Position numbers and translations under genes: made by a program. This document shows, in pieces, positions 10,318 to 59,830 of a stretch of DNA of 64,000 nt. Where the stretch lies: assembly GCA_949319575.1 (NCBI GenBank), contig CASGHD010000035.1:1-64000 (forward strand), in the 5' to 3' direction. The notes under the pieces are model-generated. The model was not told the DNA's origin. It saw nothing but the letters and a program-made list of their open reading frames with translations, and searched no databases. Origin of the DNA: an uncultured Anaerolineales bacterium. Lineage in GTDB: Bacteria > Chloroflexota > Anaerolineae > Anaerolineales > Villigracilaceae. Position 1 is the first letter of the stretch; each line of letters opens with the position of its first letter.

Positions 10318-10368
10318 GCCACAGATTACACGGATCGGCGCGAATAATCAATCCGTGTAATCCGTGGC
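10318..10368. repeat. family B palindromic repeat (CACGGAT words)
   Basis: GCCACAGATTACACGGAT / ATCCGTGTAATCCGTGGC, 17 of 18 complementary. Confidence 0.85.
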
Positions 10369-13197: not shown

Positions 13198-14341
13198 CGG
13201 TTCACCATTGCCGCAGATAAGAAGATATCCCATAAAACTCACATCCCTCACCCTCCACCATATCTCCATGCCGCTCGTCGCGCCGTTCGAGACCTCATTC
13301 GGGCGCGAGACCATGCGCGAGTGCGTCATCATTGAACTCCACGCCGACGGACTCATCGGCTACGGCGAATGTGTCGCCTCGCGCGAGCCGGGCTACAACT
13401 ACGAAACGACCGGCACCGCGTGGCACATCCTCAAAGATTTCATCGCCCCGCTCGTGTTGGGACAAGATATCCACGATGCGAACAACTTTCAAACCCGCGT
13501 CGAACGGATTCGCGGTCATCATCTCGCCAAGGCGGGAGTCGAAATGGCGTTGTGGGATCTGCTGGGCAAGCGCGATGGCAAGTCGTTGAAAGAAATATTC
13601 GGCGGAACGCGCGACAAAGTTGAAGTGGGAGTCTCGATTGGGATTCAAGAATCCGCCTCCGCTCTCGTGCAGACGGTTGATTCGTATTTGGGTCAGGGCT
13701 ATCGCCGCGTCAAGATCAAGATCAAGCCGGGGCGCGAGGTGGAAGAGACGCTCGCCGTGAGAAAAGCATATCCCAATCTACGCCTGCAAGTGGACGCCAA
13801 TTCCGCGTACACGCTCGAGTCCGCGCGGGTGTTGAAGAAAATTGACGATCTGGATTTACTGCTGATCGAACAACCGTTGTTCGAAGACGACATTTGGGAT
13901 CACCGCCTCCTGCAAGCCGAATTCAAAACGCCGATCTGCTTGGATGAAAGTGTCGTCTCGCCGCGCCATGCCCGTTACGCGCTGGAGATGAAAGCCTGCA
14001 AAATTATCAACATCAAGCCCGCGCGCGTGGGCGGGTTGAGTCAAGCGGTTGCGATTCACGATCATTGCCTCGCGCAAAACGTCCCTGTTTGGTGCGGCGG
14101 GATGCTCGAAACGGGAATCGGACGCGCCTCAAATCTCGCGCTAGCTTCCCTGCCCGGCTTCATCCTGCCCGGCGATATTTCCGCTTCGGATCGTTACTAT
14201 CACCGCGACATCACCAACGAACGATTCACATTGAACGACGATAGCACGATCACCGTTCCAACCGGTCACGGCTTGGGTGTGACGATGGACGAGTCCGCAT
14301 TGAAAGAATTTTCACTGGCTGAAATTACATTGAAGGCGTGA
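13175..14341 (+). CDS. menC: o-succinylbenzoate synthase / mandelate racemase-muconate lactonizing family enzyme
   Basis: RVKIKIKPGRE, LRLQVDANSAY, ICLDESVVS, INIKPARVGG, GGMLETGIGRA; true start uncertain (13175 overlaps previous gene). Confidence 0.82.
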   Translation: MFKTCRVNGSPLPQIRRYPIKLTSLTLHHISMPLVAPFETSFGRETMRECVIIELHADGLIGYGECVASREPGYNYETTGTAWHILKDFIAPLVLGQDIHDANNFQTRVERIRGHHLAKAGVEMALWDLLGKRDGKSLKEIFGGTRDKVEVGVSIGIQESASALVQTVDSYLGQGYRRVKIKIKPGREVEETLAVRKAYPNLRLQVDANSAYTLESARVLKKIDDLDLLLIEQPLFEDDIWDHRLLQAEFKTPICLDESVVSPRHARYALEMKACKIINIKPARVGGLSQAVAIHDHCLAQNVPVWCGGMLETGIGRASNLALASLPGFILPGDISASDRYYHRDITNERFTLNDDSTITVPTGHGLGVTMDESALKEFSLAEITLKA

Positions 14342-14390
14342 GCATCCCCTCTCCCTTTGGGAGTTTGAGGGCGGACAGTGATCAAAATTT

Positions 14391-14458
14391 ACCGCCAAGA
14401 GCGCGAAGAACGCAAAGAAAGAATTAAAACTTAGCGCCCTTAGCGGTCTTCGCGGTTC
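14391..14458. repeat. family A inverted repeat (GCGAAG/CGCAAAG words)
   Basis: ACCGCCAAGAGCGCGAAGAACGCAAAG versus reverse complement ACCGCGAAGACCGCTAAGGGCGCTAAG. Confidence 0.8.
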
Positions 14459-14551
14459 AATAAAGCAAGTTGAGGGTCAACTTTGTCCTCCCCTGAACCA
14501 TTAGGGATGGGTAGGGGGTGAGGTCGGTTTGCGGTTTATAATCATCGCGCC

Positions 14552-16255
14552 ATGAAAAAAATTCAATTACTCCTTATTCTCCTCCTGCTAATATCCTGCT
14601 CCCCGCAAGCATCATCCAGTCTCCAGTCTCCAGTCTCCTCTGCCACATCAACATCTTTTGTAACACCGCCCCTCGAACCCATCGCATTCACTCCCGCGCC
14701 CGGCGCGCACATCGGCGACTCGGTCCCCACGTCACTGCGCCAACAAGCGCAAAATTTAGATTTACAAAATTACACCCTCGACGCGTCGCCGTTCGTCGAA
14801 TCGAATCCGTCGTTGAGCGAGACAAAAATTCAATGGGTGTACGCGCTTGTCGCGCCGTTTCCAACGGTGGCAGACGGCGTCACCTTCGATCAACTCCTCG
14901 CCGTGTGGACGGATGGCGCGCTTCTCAATGGGAAACCTTTGTTGATGGAAGAATCGACACGCGACGCGTTAACCGTCCTGTGGGACGCGCCAGCCTCCCC
15001 GTCGGTACGAATCGTTTCGACGGGCGAACTGCTCGACCAAGCGTGGAGCGAATCCGCCTGGGCGATCATCCCGTTTGAAGAACTCCAGCCCAAATGGAAA
15101 GTGTTGACGATAGACGGGCAATCGCCCATCCGAAAAAGTTTTGACCTTTCAACGTATCCCCTCGTCGTTGACTTCACGCTTCAGTCGTCAACCAATTCTC
15201 TAATCTCTAATTCTCTAATCTCCAATTACGATCCATCGAAACTCACCACCGTCATCCTCACCGGCGTCACCGCCCTCGTGCGAGCCACTGCCGTGACGAT
15301 GGAATACAAAGGCGTGACGTACCCCGGTGAAAAAATCCGCGACGTATTGCGCGAAGCGGATATCGCTCACATCAGCAATGAAATCCCGTTTTTCACGGGG
15401 TGCGAGTTTCCCAAGCCCGATGCGACGGGTCCGCTCGTGTTTTGCAGCGACCCGAAATATATCGAACTGCTCACCGATGTCGGCGCGGATGTGGTGGAGT
15501 TGACCGGCAACCACTTCGCCGATCGCGGCGCACAAGGTATGTTGGAGACGATCGAAATTTACAACCAGCATGATCTTCCATACTTCGGCGGCGGCATAGA
15601 CTTGAACGATTCGCTTGAACCCGCTCTATTCGAAATAAATGGAAATAAAATCGCGTTCATCGGGTGCAACAAACCGGATGTGGACCGCTTCCCCACCGCG
15701 CGCGACTTCCGCCCCGGCGCCGCGCCGTGTGATTTTGAGTATCTCGCGCAAAAGATCGCGGAGTTGAAATCGCAAGGTTATGTGGTCGTCTCCACGTTTC
15801 AATGGAACGAGAGTTACGACTCGCGCCCCAGCCCGCAACAAATGGCTGATTTCCGCTTGATGGTGGAGTCCGGCGCGTCGATCGTGAGCGGCAGCCAGGC
15901 GCATTACCCGCAGATGATGGAATTCTACGGCGGCGCGTTCATCCATTACGGTTTGGGGAATCTCTTCTTCGACCAAATGGGAGACCAGGATTGGATGCCG
16001 CCCGGAATCCGCCGCGAGTTTTACGACCGCTATGTGGTCTACGACGGCAAACTCATCAGCGTGGAATTGGAGACCGGCATCCTCGAAGATTACTCGCGCC
16101 CGCGCATAATGACGGACGCGGAGCGACACGGTTTTTTGCAAGATTATTTTTTCTACAGCGGCTGGTTGGGCTTAGTCCCCACCCCCACCGCAACAATCAC
16201 CCCCACATTGACGCCGATGTCCATTCCGTCCGCTGTGGGAACGCCTGCTCCATGA
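14552..16255 (+). CDS. CapA-family (poly-gamma-glutamate synthesis-type) lipoprotein
   Basis: lipobox LLISC; VELTGNHFADRGAQGMLETIEIY, FQWNESYDSRPSPQQ, SGSQAHYPQMMEFYGGAFIHYGLGNLFFDQ. Confidence 0.85.
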   Translation: MKKIQLLLILLLLISCSPQASSSLQSPVSSATSTSFVTPPLEPIAFTPAPGAHIGDSVPTSLRQQAQNLDLQNYTLDASPFVESNPSLSETKIQWVYALVAPFPTVADGVTFDQLLAVWTDGALLNGKPLLMEESTRDALTVLWDAPASPSVRIVSTGELLDQAWSESAWAIIPFEELQPKWKVLTIDGQSPIRKSFDLSTYPLVVDFTLQSSTNSLISNSLISNYDPSKLTTVILTGVTALVRATAVTMEYKGVTYPGEKIRDVLREADIAHISNEIPFFTGCEFPKPDATGPLVFCSDPKYIELLTDVGADVVELTGNHFADRGAQGMLETIEIYNQHDLPYFGGGIDLNDSLEPALFEINGNKIAFIGCNKPDVDRFPTARDFRPGAAPCDFEYLAQKIAELKSQGYVVVSTFQWNESYDSRPSPQQMADFRLMVESGASIVSGSQAHYPQMMEFYGGAFIHYGLGNLFFDQMGDQDWMPPGIRREFYDRYVVYDGKLISVELETGILEDYSRPRIMTDAERHGFLQDYFFYSGWLGLVPTPTATITPTLTPMSIPSAVGTPAP

Positions 16256-29611: not shown

Positions 29612-30154
29612 TTATAGTCTTTCCAGCCAAGTTTCCACTTCGCGTGGATGTTTGAAATGGATCAATGTCAAATGGCGATGTGCTGGCAAAGCCAGCAGCA
29701 TGGGATACTCGCGCTTTCGTCTCCAAAAGGTTTTGAACAGCCACTTGAAAAGTGATTCGTCCGACCAAATCTTGAAGTGCCACCAGAGTTTTTCGCGGTT
29801 GCCGTTCCATAATTCCTCTTGATACCACCAGCGATTGAAGGTTCGGCGCGTGAGTTGCCGCAGAACAAGGAGGAATGGATAATCGAGCCAGATGACCGCT
29901 TCGGCTTTTGTCCACACCAGATCGCGGGTGACGCTGTAATTCCCCGCGACGATCCACCGTTCAGCCTGCGTCGCCGCGCGGACGCGTTCGCGGAACACGT
30001 CGAGTGGAGCCTCCTGCCAGTTGGGCTCCCAATGCAATGCGTCAAGTTCGATGAAATCGTAGCCCAATTTGCCCGCGAGGTTTTTCGCAAGCGTGGATTT
30101 GCCCGAACTCGTTGTGCCGATGACGACGATGCGATGAAATGGGAATTGAGGCAT
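29612..30154 (-). CDS. adenylate kinase-like / topology modulation P-loop protein
   Basis: IVVIGTTSSGKSTLAKNLAGKLGYDFIELDALHWEPNW. Confidence 0.88.
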   Translation of the reverse strand: MPQFPFHRIVVIGTTSSGKSTLAKNLAGKLGYDFIELDALHWEPNWQEAPLDVFRERVRAATQAERWIVAGNYSVTRDLVWTKAEAVIWLDYPFLLVLRQLTRRTFNRWWYQEELWNGNREKLWWHFKIWSDESLFKWLFKTFWRRKREYPMLLALPAHRHLTLIHFKHPREVETWLERL

Positions 30155-30165
30155 AAAGGCTTTTA

Positions 30166-30391
30166 AACCGCGAAGGACGCTAAGACCGCTAAGAGACTGT
30201 TTCTTAAGTCTGTGTCATCTTCTTTTTGTACACGGATTTCACGGACATCACGGAGAAAAACCATTTTTTAAATGCTCTTTTCCGTGAATTTCAGTGTAAT
30301 CCGTGCCGTCCGTGTCAAAAAAAGTAGTTAAGAAACACTCTATAAGAAAAGATTCTTGATTTCTTTGCGCCCTTCGCGCGCTTAGCGGTAA
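30166..30391. repeat. three nested inverted repeats (family A outside, family B inside)
   Basis: outer 30166-30194/30361-30391; middle AGAGACTGTTTCTTAA/TTAAGAAACACTCT; inner ACACGGATTTCACGGA/TCCGTG..AATCCGTG..CCGTGT. Confidence 0.85.
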
Positions 30392-30397
30392 TTTTTT

Positions 30398-31459
30398 TTA
30401 TCTCACATATATGGGATTACTAAATATCCAGCCGCGTTTTCTGCCGAGGTAGTTACGATACGCTTCCACGCGGTAGACTCCCGCTTCGTTCACATTATGC
30501 GTGGCGGCGTAGGAATTTTTCCACACGCCGATTCGTTGACCATCTTTGAGGAGGTGAATCTCCGCCGCAGATGGAACGTGCGCGTGCAACGTCACGCCGC
30601 CTTTGACGGAAATCTCCTCGCCCATGATCGCGGACTGTTCGAGTCCCTTCGCTTTGAAGGCGAACCCTTTTGTTGGAGCGGGCAGATCATAGGCGACGAA
30701 GCATCGTCCTGCCGCGAGCGCGTCGTAGATCATTTTCTTGTCAGTGGGAACATCGCCTGTCAACGGTTGTGGAATAAAAACATGCGTGTTGATGGTTTTG
30801 AAGTGAAACTCATACGGGAAGATCACGCGGCGCAAGGGTCCCATGTTCATGTGAAGCGCGTGCGCGTCTGAGCCGCCGATGGCAACGACGGGACGCCCAT
30901 GCGAGAGTAATTCATCCCAGCGATTCAGTGTTTCAAGAATCGGGTGGTAGCCGATGAACTGCGGGAAGAACGCGTAAAACAATCCGTGCAATTTGGTTGG
31001 GACAACGGTCTTGAGTTCGCTCAATCCATTCCACAGTTCGATGCCCGTGTAGTTTTGCACATCCCAGTCCTCCCATGAAATATCGGTCTCTCTGAAAGCA
31101 GGCGCTTCGGGGTCTTTGGGGTGGGCGATGAAACAAATCCCTCCCGCATCGCGCACGCCGTTGATGAGCGTCTGCGGATTTTCGGCGAGCGTGGAGAGGT
31201 CGCGGTCCGCGTTGAAGATGAGGAGGTGATTCTTTTGGGGAACGCGGGCTTGGTCGTGGACTTCCTGTCCAACGAGAAGCAGGACTCCCTGTCGGTTGAG
31301 ACGGTAGTATCCTTCCACGCCGCGGACTAGCACGTTGTGATCCGTCACGATGACGGCATCCACGCCGGTTTGAATCGCGGCGTTGGCAATATCCTTGTGC
31401 GTGCCGCTCCCGTCGGAGTAGCGCGTGTGCATGTGTAAGTTGACGATTATCTCGTGCAT
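30398..31459 (-). CDS. PHP-domain metal-dependent phosphoesterase
   Basis: MHEIIVNLHMHTRYSDGSGTHKDIANAAIQTGVDAVIVTDHN. Confidence 0.9.
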   Translation of the reverse strand: MHEIIVNLHMHTRYSDGSGTHKDIANAAIQTGVDAVIVTDHNVLVRGVEGYYRLNRQGVLLLVGQEVHDQARVPQKNHLLIFNADRDLSTLAENPQTLINGVRDAGGICFIAHPKDPEAPAFRETDISWEDWDVQNYTGIELWNGLSELKTVVPTKLHGLFYAFFPQFIGYHPILETLNRWDELLSHGRPVVAIGGSDAHALHMNMGPLRRVIFPYEFHFKTINTHVFIPQPLTGDVPTDKKMIYDALAAGRCFVAYDLPAPTKGFAFKAKGLEQSAIMGEEISVKGGVTLHAHVPSAAEIHLLKDGQRIGVWKNSYAATHNVNEAGVYRVEAYRNYLGRKRGWIFSNPIYVR

Positions 31460-35082: not shown

Positions 35083-35149
35083 GTAGGGGCGGGGTGTCCC
35101 CGCCTTTTTGATTCAATCAAACAATAGGGCAGGGGAACCCTGCCCCTAC
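35083..35149. repeat. family M double-hairpin element (GTAGGGGC termini)
   Basis: GTAGGGGC/GCCCCTAC outer; GGCGGGG-TGT-CCCCGCC and GGGCAGGG-GAA-CCCTGCCC inner. Confidence 0.85.
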
Positions 35150-37476: not shown

Positions 37477-38325
37477 TTAGAAGGAAATTTCCCCAACCTG
37501 CTCGAAGTTGACATCGAACAATTCTTCCGCCTCCGTCTCCGCTTCGGCTTGGTCCGCCTCTCCCGCGCGGACGCCGCGCTCGCAGTACGATCTGTAAGGG
37601 CAGTACAGGCAGCGGGTGGCGTCATCAGTTAGTGGGTAGAGAGAAGCGCTGTCCTGAGCCTGTCGAAGGGCGGTCTGTATTTCATCCGCAAGTTTGAGGA
37701 GCAAATCCCAATCGCGTTTGTATTGCGCGGACGTGTACGCGAATCGCGCGGGGTCGTTGGGAAAATCTGCAAACCAGTAGACCATCTCGATCTGTTCAGG
37801 CTCGAAGGGACGTCCGTTGTTGAGGTGCGCCCCCGCGTGGACGAGCAGGGCGCGATAGACGCGGGTCTGCATCCGCGCGGCGAGCCATTCATTGCGCGGA
37901 CGTTTGCGATAGGTTTTCCAATCGTAGATGGTCGCTTTGTTTTCGCGGATCGCAATGAGATCGTATTTTGCAAGCAGTCGAAAATTTCCAAGCGGCGCGG
38001 AGAGGGTGGCTTCTGGATAAAGACCTGTTAGGTTTTTAAAACCTGACAGGTCTAGCGCATTTGAAAAATTCTCCCACCAGCGTTTCAAATTTGGCGTGTT
38101 CGCAAGTTTACTCACCTGTTCGCTTGGAATTCCGATGAGATATTGTTGCGCGAGCCGATGAAAGAATTCCCCTTCGCGCTGATGTTGTTCATTCTCCAGC
38201 GCTGGCTCCGACTCGATGGCGGGATAAGACAGACGCTCGAGGTAGCGCAATTGGAAACGGCGCGCGCAGTCCACGTAATCTTGCAGGGATGATTGAGAGA
38301 GGGTGGTAAGTTGAAAGGCAGGCAT
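37477..38325 (-). CDS. PD-(D/E)XK nuclease superfamily (RecB/AddB-like) protein
   Basis: LSQSSLQDYVDCARRFQLRYLERL; AKYDLIAIRENKATIYDWKTYRK; CLYCPYRSYCERG. Confidence 0.85.
   Translation of the reverse strand: MPAFQLTTLSQSSLQDYVDCARRFQLRYLERLSYPAIESEPALENEQHQREGEFFHRLAQQYLIGIPSEQVSKLANTPNLKRWWENFSNALDLSGFKNLTGLYPEATLSAPLGNFRLLAKYDLIAIRENKATIYDWKTYRKRPRNEWLAARMQTRVYRALLVHAGAHLNNGRPFEPEQIEMVYWFADFPNDPARFAYTSAQYKRDWDLLLKLADEIQTALRQAQDSASLYPLTDDATRCLYCPYRSYCERGVRAGEADQAEAETEAEELFDVNFEQVGEISF
38021..38053. repeat. family G 33-nt palindrome inside CDS
   Basis: AGACCTGTTAGGTTTT-T-AAAACCTGACAGGTCT, one mismatch. Confidence 0.9.
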
Positions 38326-50273: not shown

Positions 50274-50347
50274 GGGCGCTTAGCTCAGTTGGTTAGAGCG
50301 CATCTATCACACAGATGAGGCCAGGGGTTCGAGTCCCTTAGCGCCCA
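50274..50347 (+). tRNA. tRNA-Val(CAC)
   Basis: GGGCGCT/AGCGCCC acceptor arms, D-arm GCTCAGTTGGTTAGAGC, anticodon stem CATCT-ATCACAC-AGATG (CAC), GGTTCGAGTCC T-arm; no encoded CCA. Confidence 0.92.
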
Positions 50348-50389
50348 CAAAACGAAAAACGAGTCAAATTGACTCGTTTTTCGTTTTGT
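50347..50389. terminator. perfect 21-bp inverted repeat abutting tRNA 3' end
   Basis: ACAAAACGAAAAACGAGTCAA-A-TTGACTCGTTTTTCGTTTTGT. Confidence 0.65.
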
Positions 50390-51446: not shown

Positions 51447-51496
51447 GCAGAAAACGCTGATTCACGCTAAGCAAAGCAAGAATCAGCGTTTTCTGC
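51447..51496. repeat. family D inverted repeat (AACGCTGAT words)
   Basis: GCAGAAAACGCTGATT / AATCAGCGTTTTCTGC, 16-bp perfect. Confidence 0.88.
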
Positions 51497-57244: not shown

Positions 57245-59830
57245 ATGATGCAAAATATCCTGCTGGCGATCCGCTCGTTGATTGCCCGCCCCTTGCGCAC
57301 CCTGCTGACTACATTTGGCATTGTGCTTGGCGTGGCGGTGATCCTCAGCATCAACATCACCAACCGAAGCACGCTTGCCGCCATCACCCGGCTATTCAGC
57401 GAATCCTCCGGCAGGACCAACCTGGTGATCACCAATGCCGACTTGACTTTGGGAGGATTCGACGAGGGAATTTTGTATCGCATCGAAACGGTCGCGGGCG
57501 TGGATGCCGCCGTGCCGCTCATTCAATCGCAAACCCTGCTTGCCGACGATTCCCAACGCAATGAATTCAATGTCAGTTTCTTCGGCATCGTGCCAGGCGG
57601 ACTCCTCGTGTATGGCATCGACCCAGCCAAAGACACGCTCGCGCGCGACTACAAGCTCGAAGCGGGGACGTTTCTCACCGAAGACCTCAATGAATTTCAC
57701 ATCGTGCTGGTGCGCGAGTTCGCAGAAGAGAACAACCTGCAATTGGGGAAGAGCGTCACCATCCGCACGCCGGCGGGGAACGCGCGCTTGAAGATCATCG
57801 GCTTGATCTCGCGCGAGGGACCCGGTCAGTTGAACAACGGCGCATTCGGCGTCGTTCCGCTTGACACGGCGCAAAAGATATTCGAACGCCCCAACGAACT
57901 CGACCAGGTGGATATCCTTGCCGCCGAGGAGAACCGCTCGCCGCAGGAACTGGACGCGCTAAAAGCCAGCCTACAAGACCGTATCGGCGTGCAATATTCA
58001 GTCATCTTCCCCGCCACGCAAGGCAAGCGCGTATCACAGATGGTCAGCGGATATCAAACGGGCTTGAATATATTCAGCATCATCGCCATCTTCGCCGGGG
58101 CATTCCTGATCTACAACGCTTTTTCGATGACCGTCATCGAGCGCACGCGCGAGATCGGCATGTTGCGCACGCTTGGCATGACGCGCTGGCAGGTGATGAA
58201 ACAAATCCTGCTGGAGGCGGTCACGCTTTCCATCGCAGGTTCCGCCATCGGCATCGGCTTGGGAATTTTACTCGCGCGCGGGTTAATCCGCGTTACCGAG
58301 GTCTTCCTTGCGCAGGACGTGAGCGATGTTCACATCCCCATTTCTGCTTTGTTAACGAGCGCGGGAATTGGCATCCTTGTTACATTACTGGCAACCGTCA
58401 TTCCCGCATGGCAGGCGGGACGCATCTCGCCGCTCGAGGCGTTGCGCATCCGCGGCAACAGCGACGATACATCCGCGATCCAACGCGGGCTTCGAATTGG
58501 CGCGGCGGTCATGCTTGTTTCGCTCATCGTGATCTTCCTGATTCCCATCCCCGAACCATTCGGGAGCCGCATCAACAACATGGCAGTCCTTGGCATGATG
58601 TTCGGCGGCGCATTGCTCATCCCCGCTTCGGTTGGGTTGTGGGAACGCTTCACGCGCGCCGCGATCCGTCGCATGTATGGGCGCGAGGGGCAACTGGGAA
58701 GCCGCAACATCGAGCGTTCGCGCTGGCGCACCGCGCTCACCGTGGCCGCGCTGATGATCGGCGTGGCAATGATCCTCAGCATCCGCGCCGTCACCATCGC
58801 CTTCGACCGCGACATCCGCAGTTGGATCGACGTATACATCGGCGGCGACCTCTTCGTGTTTTCCTCCATCCCCATGCGAAACGATCTACAGGCAAAGTTA
58901 GCCGCCGTCCCTGGGGTGGATGCGGTGACTCCCCTCCGCTACCTCGACATCAAGCGCGTCAAACCGGACGGGGAAACTGAGCCGCTCGCCCTCACCGCCG
59001 TCGACCCCTTGTCATATTCGCAGGTGACCTCGTTTGCGTTCACTGACAGCGAAGGCGACCCGGCAGACTTCCTTGCCCAACTCGCAGGCGGCGACACCAT
59101 CTTTGTTTCGAGCGTGCTTGCCGAAAAATATGGGTTGAAGCAAGGCGATATTCTCACGTTGAAAACGCGGCGCGGCGAGCGCGACTTCAAAATTGCCGCC
59201 ATCGTGGTGGATTATTACAACCGCGGCATGGTGGTGCAAGCCAGTTGGCGCGACTTGAAGCGCTACTTCCAGGTTAACGACGCGAGCGCGTATCTTGTGC
59301 AGGTGGAGGCAGGCGCCGATGAAACCACCGTGCAACAACAGATCGATAAACTCTACGGCAAGCGCCGCAACCTGACCATCCAATCGAACCAGACGTTGAA
59401 ATCGAGCGCGCTCAACCTGATCGGGCAGACCAGCAGTCTATTCGATGTGTTGGCGTTCATCGCCATGATCGTCGCGTCGCTGGGCGTGGTGAATACGATG
59501 ACCATGAACGTGCTGGAGCGCACGCGCGAACTCGGCATGTTGCGCAGTCTTGGCATGACGCGCTGGCAGGTGACCAAGATGATCCTCGCCGAAGCCCTGC
59601 TCATCGGCGTGATCGGCGGCGGGTTGGGATTGCTCTTTGGCTTGTTCCAATCGCGCGTGGTGATCTCCACGGTGAATTCCACTGCGGGCTACGACCTGAC
59701 GTACATCCTCCCCACGCAGGGAATCATCGTCAGCCTGGTCATCGCGTTGTTCGTCTCACAATTGGCGGCAATCCTCCCTGCGGCGCGCGCGGCGCGTTTG
59801 CGAATCATCGAGGCGATTCAATTCGAATGA
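57245..59830 (+). CDS. FtsX/MacB-like ABC transporter permease, duplicated FtsX domains
   Basis: two copies of ERTRE(I/L)GMLR(T/S)LGMTRWQV; real start at MMQNILLAIRSLIARPLRTLLTTFGIVLGVAVI. Confidence 0.92.
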   Translation: MMQNILLAIRSLIARPLRTLLTTFGIVLGVAVILSINITNRSTLAAITRLFSESSGRTNLVITNADLTLGGFDEGILYRIETVAGVDAAVPLIQSQTLLADDSQRNEFNVSFFGIVPGGLLVYGIDPAKDTLARDYKLEAGTFLTEDLNEFHIVLVREFAEENNLQLGKSVTIRTPAGNARLKIIGLISREGPGQLNNGAFGVVPLDTAQKIFERPNELDQVDILAAEENRSPQELDALKASLQDRIGVQYSVIFPATQGKRVSQMVSGYQTGLNIFSIIAIFAGAFLIYNAFSMTVIERTREIGMLRTLGMTRWQVMKQILLEAVTLSIAGSAIGIGLGILLARGLIRVTEVFLAQDVSDVHIPISALLTSAGIGILVTLLATVIPAWQAGRISPLEALRIRGNSDDTSAIQRGLRIGAAVMLVSLIVIFLIPIPEPFGSRINNMAVLGMMFGGALLIPASVGLWERFTRAAIRRMYGREGQLGSRNIERSRWRTALTVAALMIGVAMILSIRAVTIAFDRDIRSWIDVYIGGDLFVFSSIPMRNDLQAKLAAVPGVDAVTPLRYLDIKRVKPDGETEPLALTAVDPLSYSQVTSFAFTDSEGDPADFLAQLAGGDTIFVSSVLAEKYGLKQGDILTLKTRRGERDFKIAAIVVDYYNRGMVVQASWRDLKRYFQVNDASAYLVQVEAGADETTVQQQIDKLYGKRRNLTIQSNQTLKSSALNLIGQTSSLFDVLAFIAMIVASLGVVNTMTMNVLERTRELGMLRSLGMTRWQVTKMILAEALLIGVIGGGLGLLFGLFQSRVVISTVNSTAGYDLTYILPTQGIIVSLVIALFVSQLAAILPAARAARLRIIEAIQFE

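Follow-up and report, generated by a model that had tools for sequence, protein, structure and literature searches.

A 150-bp MITE of IS5/IS1031 type, very probably inserted in an older hairpin, accounts for nested palindromes in an Anaerolineales genome

In an uncultured bacterium of the Anaerolineales (Villigracilaceae), the nested palindromes that lie between two genes very probably comprise two elements brought together by ordinary insertion: a 150-bp MITE of an IS5/IS1031-type insertion sequence (IS), and the older family-A hairpin in which it lies. This reading draws on direct observations, namely a unit flanked by an exact duplication, copies of that unit dispersed elsewhere, an autonomous IS with the same termini in relatives, and the outer hairpin free of insert in sister species. 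The DNA analysed, referred to here as the window, was a stretch of 64,000 nucleotides (positions 1 to 64,000 of contig CASGHD010000035.1), and its genome (G000) is represented by a 3.65-Mb assembly of 227 contigs that is ~91% complete. The features of the locus are as follows.

30166-30391: region under study, the gap between two minus-strand genes
30398-31459, minus strand: gene for a PHP-domain protein (353 aa), upstream of the gap; conserved beside the gap and defining its orthologues
29612-30154, minus strand: gene for a P-loop kinase-like protein (180 aa), downstream of the gap; a conserved neighbour
30166-30192, plus strand: outer family-A hairpin, left arm, built of three CGCNAAG units of ~9 nt, with the TAA at its end being the target-site duplication; supported by the insert-free hairpin in sister species
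30361-30391, plus strand: outer family-A hairpin, right arm, from its position and the insert-free hairpin in sister species
30190-30192, plus strand: left target-site duplication TAA, from the flanks of MITE copies
30343-30345, plus strand: right target-site duplication TAA, from the flanks of MITE copies
30193-30342, plus strand: MITE, 150 bp, IS5 family (IS1031-like), corresponding to the middle and inner layers of the initial annotation
30193-30207, plus strand: left terminal inverted repeat (TIR) of the MITE, GAGACTGTTTCTTAA, from aligned copies
30328-30342, minus strand: right TIR of the MITE, TAGAGTGTTTCTTAA on the minus strand, from aligned copies
30230-30259, plus strand: left arm of the internal hairpin of the MITE, a family-B core with units CACGGANNN, from position and aligned copies
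30278-30315, plus strand: right arm of the internal hairpin, from position and aligned copies

The initial annotation had described three nested inverted repeats of different families, and all six of the arms that it quoted were located, each occurring exactly once within the window (the outer arms at 30166-30193 and 30361-30391, the middle arms at 30192-30207 and 30328-30341). The palindromes are indeed nested, but only two units are present, the middle and inner layers being the termini and the central hairpin of a single MITE; the CTAAG that closes the quoted outer left arm is made of the target-site duplication and the first G of the MITE. As the MITE carries its own TIRs as well as a hairpin core, one insertion into one palindrome takes on the appearance of three nested palindromes. 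Folding of 30160-30400 as single-stranded DNA gave -48.7 kcal/mol versus -24.1 ± 3.5 kcal/mol for dinucleotide shuffles (z = -7.0), none of the 200 shuffles being as good, and folding of the same region as RNA gave a z of -6.1. Comparison of the region with Rfam returned no family above the gathering score, only sub-threshold eukaryotic miRNA models. Other self-complementary stretches were seen in the window at 50347-50389, 51447-51496, 38021-38053 and 35083-35149 (98%, 84%, 91% and 75% two-strand identity, respectively), along with a 70-bp direct repeat at 58127-58196 and 59504-59573, the copies of which are 89% identical and 1.4 kb apart.

The terminal repeats of the MITE were found to be GAGASTGTTTCTTAA, with one substitution in each of the two repeats of the window copy, at which the 3-bp sequence TAA is duplicated. 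When the whole region (261 bases) was used to query the genome, 54 matches were returned; most of the best ones span approximately positions 40-197 of the query, which correspond to the middle and inner layers and leave out the outer arms. Identity across the whole unit was 93-96% for the three closest copies (L002-L004), and 33 copies from across the genus could be aligned end to end with the 150-bp arrangement of middle and inner layers kept. Nearly all copies were 150 bp long or close to it with TNA on both sides, in a search that did not demand a duplication. The TIR pattern gave 58 matches in the G000 genome versus a single match for the reversed control pattern, and it was present in 13 of the 17 other sampled genomes of the genus; named records elsewhere with the same termini came mostly from Anaerolineales and other Chloroflexi. 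Taking all loci together, we called 79 distinct elements bounded by T.A at either end, 66 of which had identical duplications. A TA duplication of the IS630/mariner type had been a first guess from the flanks; the aligned copies show the 3-bp TNA instead. Overall this element is short (150 bp), non-coding, dispersed in dozens of copies and bounded by TIRs, with a target-site duplication of fixed length (3-bp TNA), as expected of a MITE.

A likely partner was found in relatives in the form of an 859-bp autonomous IS (L138/L193, L139/L206, L177 and L213), the first 15-17 bp of which are the same as those of the MITE at both ends and which is also flanked by TNA duplications. This IS encodes a 268-aa transposase of the IS5 family (NCBIfam NF033580, E = 1.5e-64; Pfam DUF4096 and DDE_Tnp_1). 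Elements of the IS1031 type measure ~850-950 bp, and the 859-bp IS resembles them in its size, its TNA target with 3-bp duplication and its transposase family. The target criteria were those of a published description in which IS1031-group elements insert at TNA with a 3-bp repeat, ISLrh of this group being 857 bp long with TNA and a 3-bp repeat (PMC12016507); because its size and TNA target match the description of ISLrh, the partner IS fits the group. The present system is thus like IS5-family elements of the IS1031 group, and the MITEs derived from them, in having an IS of similar size (859 bp), a DDE transposase gene and TNA with a 3-bp duplication, and the MITE shares its terminal 15-17 bp with the partner. 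It differs in that the core of the MITE is not derived from the IS but is a multi-unit hairpin, and in an added preference, measured here, for C before and G after the TNA. No match to PF13340 (DUF4096) was obtained in the G000 assembly, which is incomplete (~91%, 227 contigs), so that the transposase of the 859-bp IS is a presumed mover of the window copy. One end of the 859-bp IS at L139 is overlapped by a gene for a REP-associated tyrosine transposase (NF047646; L139:865-1575, minus strand), which suggests that the IS landed in or next to that gene.

The outer layer is an older, independent family-A hairpin. In sister species, the gap between the PHP-domain and kinase-like genes varies in content: the orthologous gap contains the family-A hairpin without insert in G012, G001 and G016, the same hairpin with changes and again without insert in G004 and G017, a related CACAAAG/CACGAAG hairpin in G010 and G014, and a CACAGAG/CACGGAG hairpin in G008, while it is just 18 bp long in G002, G011 and G015. 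In G013, the closest sister according to its PHP-domain protein (91% identity), the gap (L062) contains the family-A hairpin with a different MITE of 121 bp in its loop, flanked by the 5-bp duplication TTTAT. Insertion into a pre-existing palindrome, as the initial annotation had proposed, is borne out by these gaps, in which the outer layer occurs on its own as that annotation had suggested looking for, and they demonstrate nesting by later insertion for the outer boundary. By removing the MITE, we infer a pre-insertion sequence that would have read ...GACCGCTAAGAAAAGATTC..., the orthologous sites having diverged. No three-layer element fixed as a unit was found among the relatives, where orthologous gaps hold the outer hairpin alone and the MITE sits in many sites outside family A. 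The layers also occur separately in the window, where 14393-14454 holds a family-A hairpin and 10320-10366 one of family-B type, each on its own.

The hairpin at 14393-14454 appears to be enclosed, within 14340-14530, by yet another inverted repeat (CCCCTCTCCC... / ...GGGATGGGTAGGGGG). At a non-orthologous place in G017 (L114), this hairpin and some of its flank recur as a near copy, itself interrupted by the 150-bp type of MITE; the window hairpin (14391) was considered as the orthologous empty site of this filled copy and rejected, the hairpins being 91% alike and the neighbouring genes different. A RAYT origin of the outer hairpin was likewise rejected, as no matching nonamer-unit hairpin was found around six Y1_Tnp loci: within ~1.5 kb of these RAYT-like matches, six in all in the genome, the only nonamer-unit arms were one weak coding-like match. 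The hairpins of families A-E resemble REP/REPIN and RAYT systems in being short, intergenic, dispersed palindromes, but their arms are made of ~9-nt units and, apart from that weak match, were not found near the RAYT-like loci.

The target consensus over the 79 sites was C-TWA-G. In an 861-kb sample from two genomes (40 stretches of ~20 kb, plus the window), 22 of 255 intergenic CTNAG sites (8.6%) lay within family-A hairpins, because the arms of this family contain CTTAG and CTAAG. Insertions into family-A hairpins numbered 6 among the 79 versus 3.4 expected from context (P = 0.12), which leaves room for a mild bias. A mechanism that targets hairpin tips had been put forward with the nested layers; either the transposase itself or an intermediate (cruciform or replication-fork) would then steer insertion to palindrome apices, so that palindromes grow in shells. 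In its favour, MITE copies lie in or beside several hairpin families (family A in L001, L015, L114, L121 and L215; CACAGAG-type in L201; CACAAAG-type in L218), the 121-bp MITE of G013 occupies the loop of the same hairpin at TTTAT and another copy the loop of a CACGGAG-type hairpin (L292), and the loops of MITEs host further inserts themselves (L026, L030, L216 and L217). Precedents also exist: REP/PU sequences serve as targets of IS1397, ISKpn1, IS621, ISPpu9 and ISNm1106, at least one element on this list belonging to the IS5 family (PMC1525189), and YPAL sites lie at or beside dyads (PMC2229807). Apex steering is nevertheless very unlikely here. When the 70 bases flanking each site on one side were aligned with the reverse-complemented opposite flank, 8 sites reached a dyad score of at least 12 versus 7.1 expected from context-matched intergenic TNA sites (P = 0.41), and thresholds of 15 and 18 likewise gave no excess. 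Insertions were off-centre rather than at palindrome centres, with unequal gaps to the two arms (5/18, 14/2, 4/15 and 3/19); those in family A were at CTTAG or CTAAG in the arms or near the apex, L114 and L215 being well out in an arm, and the strong C-TWA-G preference accounts for the choice of family-A arms. The resemblance to REP/PU-targeting IS thus extends to a mobile element inside an intergenic palindromic repeat, but here it concerns a minority of copies (the 6 of 79), as CTNAG predicts, without dedicated palindrome targeting. Minimum-energy folding of 120-nt sites had been tried as a palindrome test and was dropped in favour of the arm-to-arm alignment, as shuffled sequence scores alike. 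For the second, 121-bp MITE, dyads were present at 3 of 16 sites, a sample too small to judge.

That the outer, middle and inner layers were inserted in turn is barely conceivable, since the same termini found with other core hairpins do show that shell and core are separable over long evolutionary times, but middle and inner layers move jointly as one ~150-bp unit in the 33 aligned copies and L002-L004 are near-identical over that entire unit, so that the dispersed copies refute successive insertion for the window locus and leave it a place just in an ancient origin of the MITE core. Under the preferred reading of a single insertion, an IS5-family transposase of the IS1031 type would have mobilised the 150-bp non-autonomous MITE in trans. 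The MITE would have landed at a CTAAG in the left arm of the family-A hairpin, towards its apex, between the PHP-domain and kinase-like genes, with duplication of TAA upon insertion. The nesting would then reflect the CTNAG motif in family-A arms together with a tolerance of insertions in intergenic hairpins.

The same terminal shell was found with differing cores. Most copies have a CACGGAT-type core, a CACAGAG-type core is present in L060, L132, L189, L194, L199, L209, L215 and L228, and two other core hairpins were found, one in L111, L185 and L190 and another in L208. In L014, L019, L021, L119 and L201, 9-10 bases, equal to one whole unit, are absent from a core arm, which suggests that core arms lose units whole. 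Consensus folding of the MITE core gave a covariation term of approximately zero and thus nothing to indicate that the core is under selection as an RNA, an idea that was rejected. A 23-41-bp piece resembling TACTTCGACAGGCTCAGCACAAG was seen within a core arm of copies L115, L168, L187, L192, L196, L220 and L006, and a third small element with ends GTAACTACTCAG lies in the MITE loop of L030 and L102, with a possible 8-bp duplication CTTTTTTT in L030.

The 121-bp MITE family is unrelated, with ends TAGGACTTACGCA and a 5-bp duplication in which at least 4 of 5 bases match in 12 of 16 copies. It is abundant in G013 (75 matches), often at contig ends (L062; L277-L316), and its core is likewise a unit hairpin (CGCGAATT units). 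Hairpins of these unit types are also common as standalone copies scattered through the genome: in 463 kb of G000, those of families A, B, C, D and E numbered 10, 11, 5, 5 and 2, respectively, with none in the reversed-sequence control; 5 of the 11 B hairpins were flagged inside MITE-shell elements, and at least one more is also inside one. In a single genome, near-identical CACGGAG-type hairpins were seen in opposite orientation 2.2 kb apart (L231:13133-13194 and 15392-15453). A text search of the literature for the unit sequences returned no description, just unrelated chance matches. With two MITE families of unrelated ends carrying such cores, and units lost as whole nonamers, we tentatively raise the possibility, itself doubtful, that the ~9-nt-unit hairpins of Anaerolineales (CGCNAAG, CACGGAT, CACAGAG, CACAAAG and CGCGAAT) form an undescribed superfamily that acts as interchangeable cargo of transposon termini.

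The exotic notion of a machinery seeking hairpin tips gives way to a tested, ordinary insertion, and what is gained is a unit with a name, a motif for its target and a transposase as its partner. This also raises the question of why unrelated mini-transposons share nonamer-unit hairpin cores, and of what moves the standalone hairpins.
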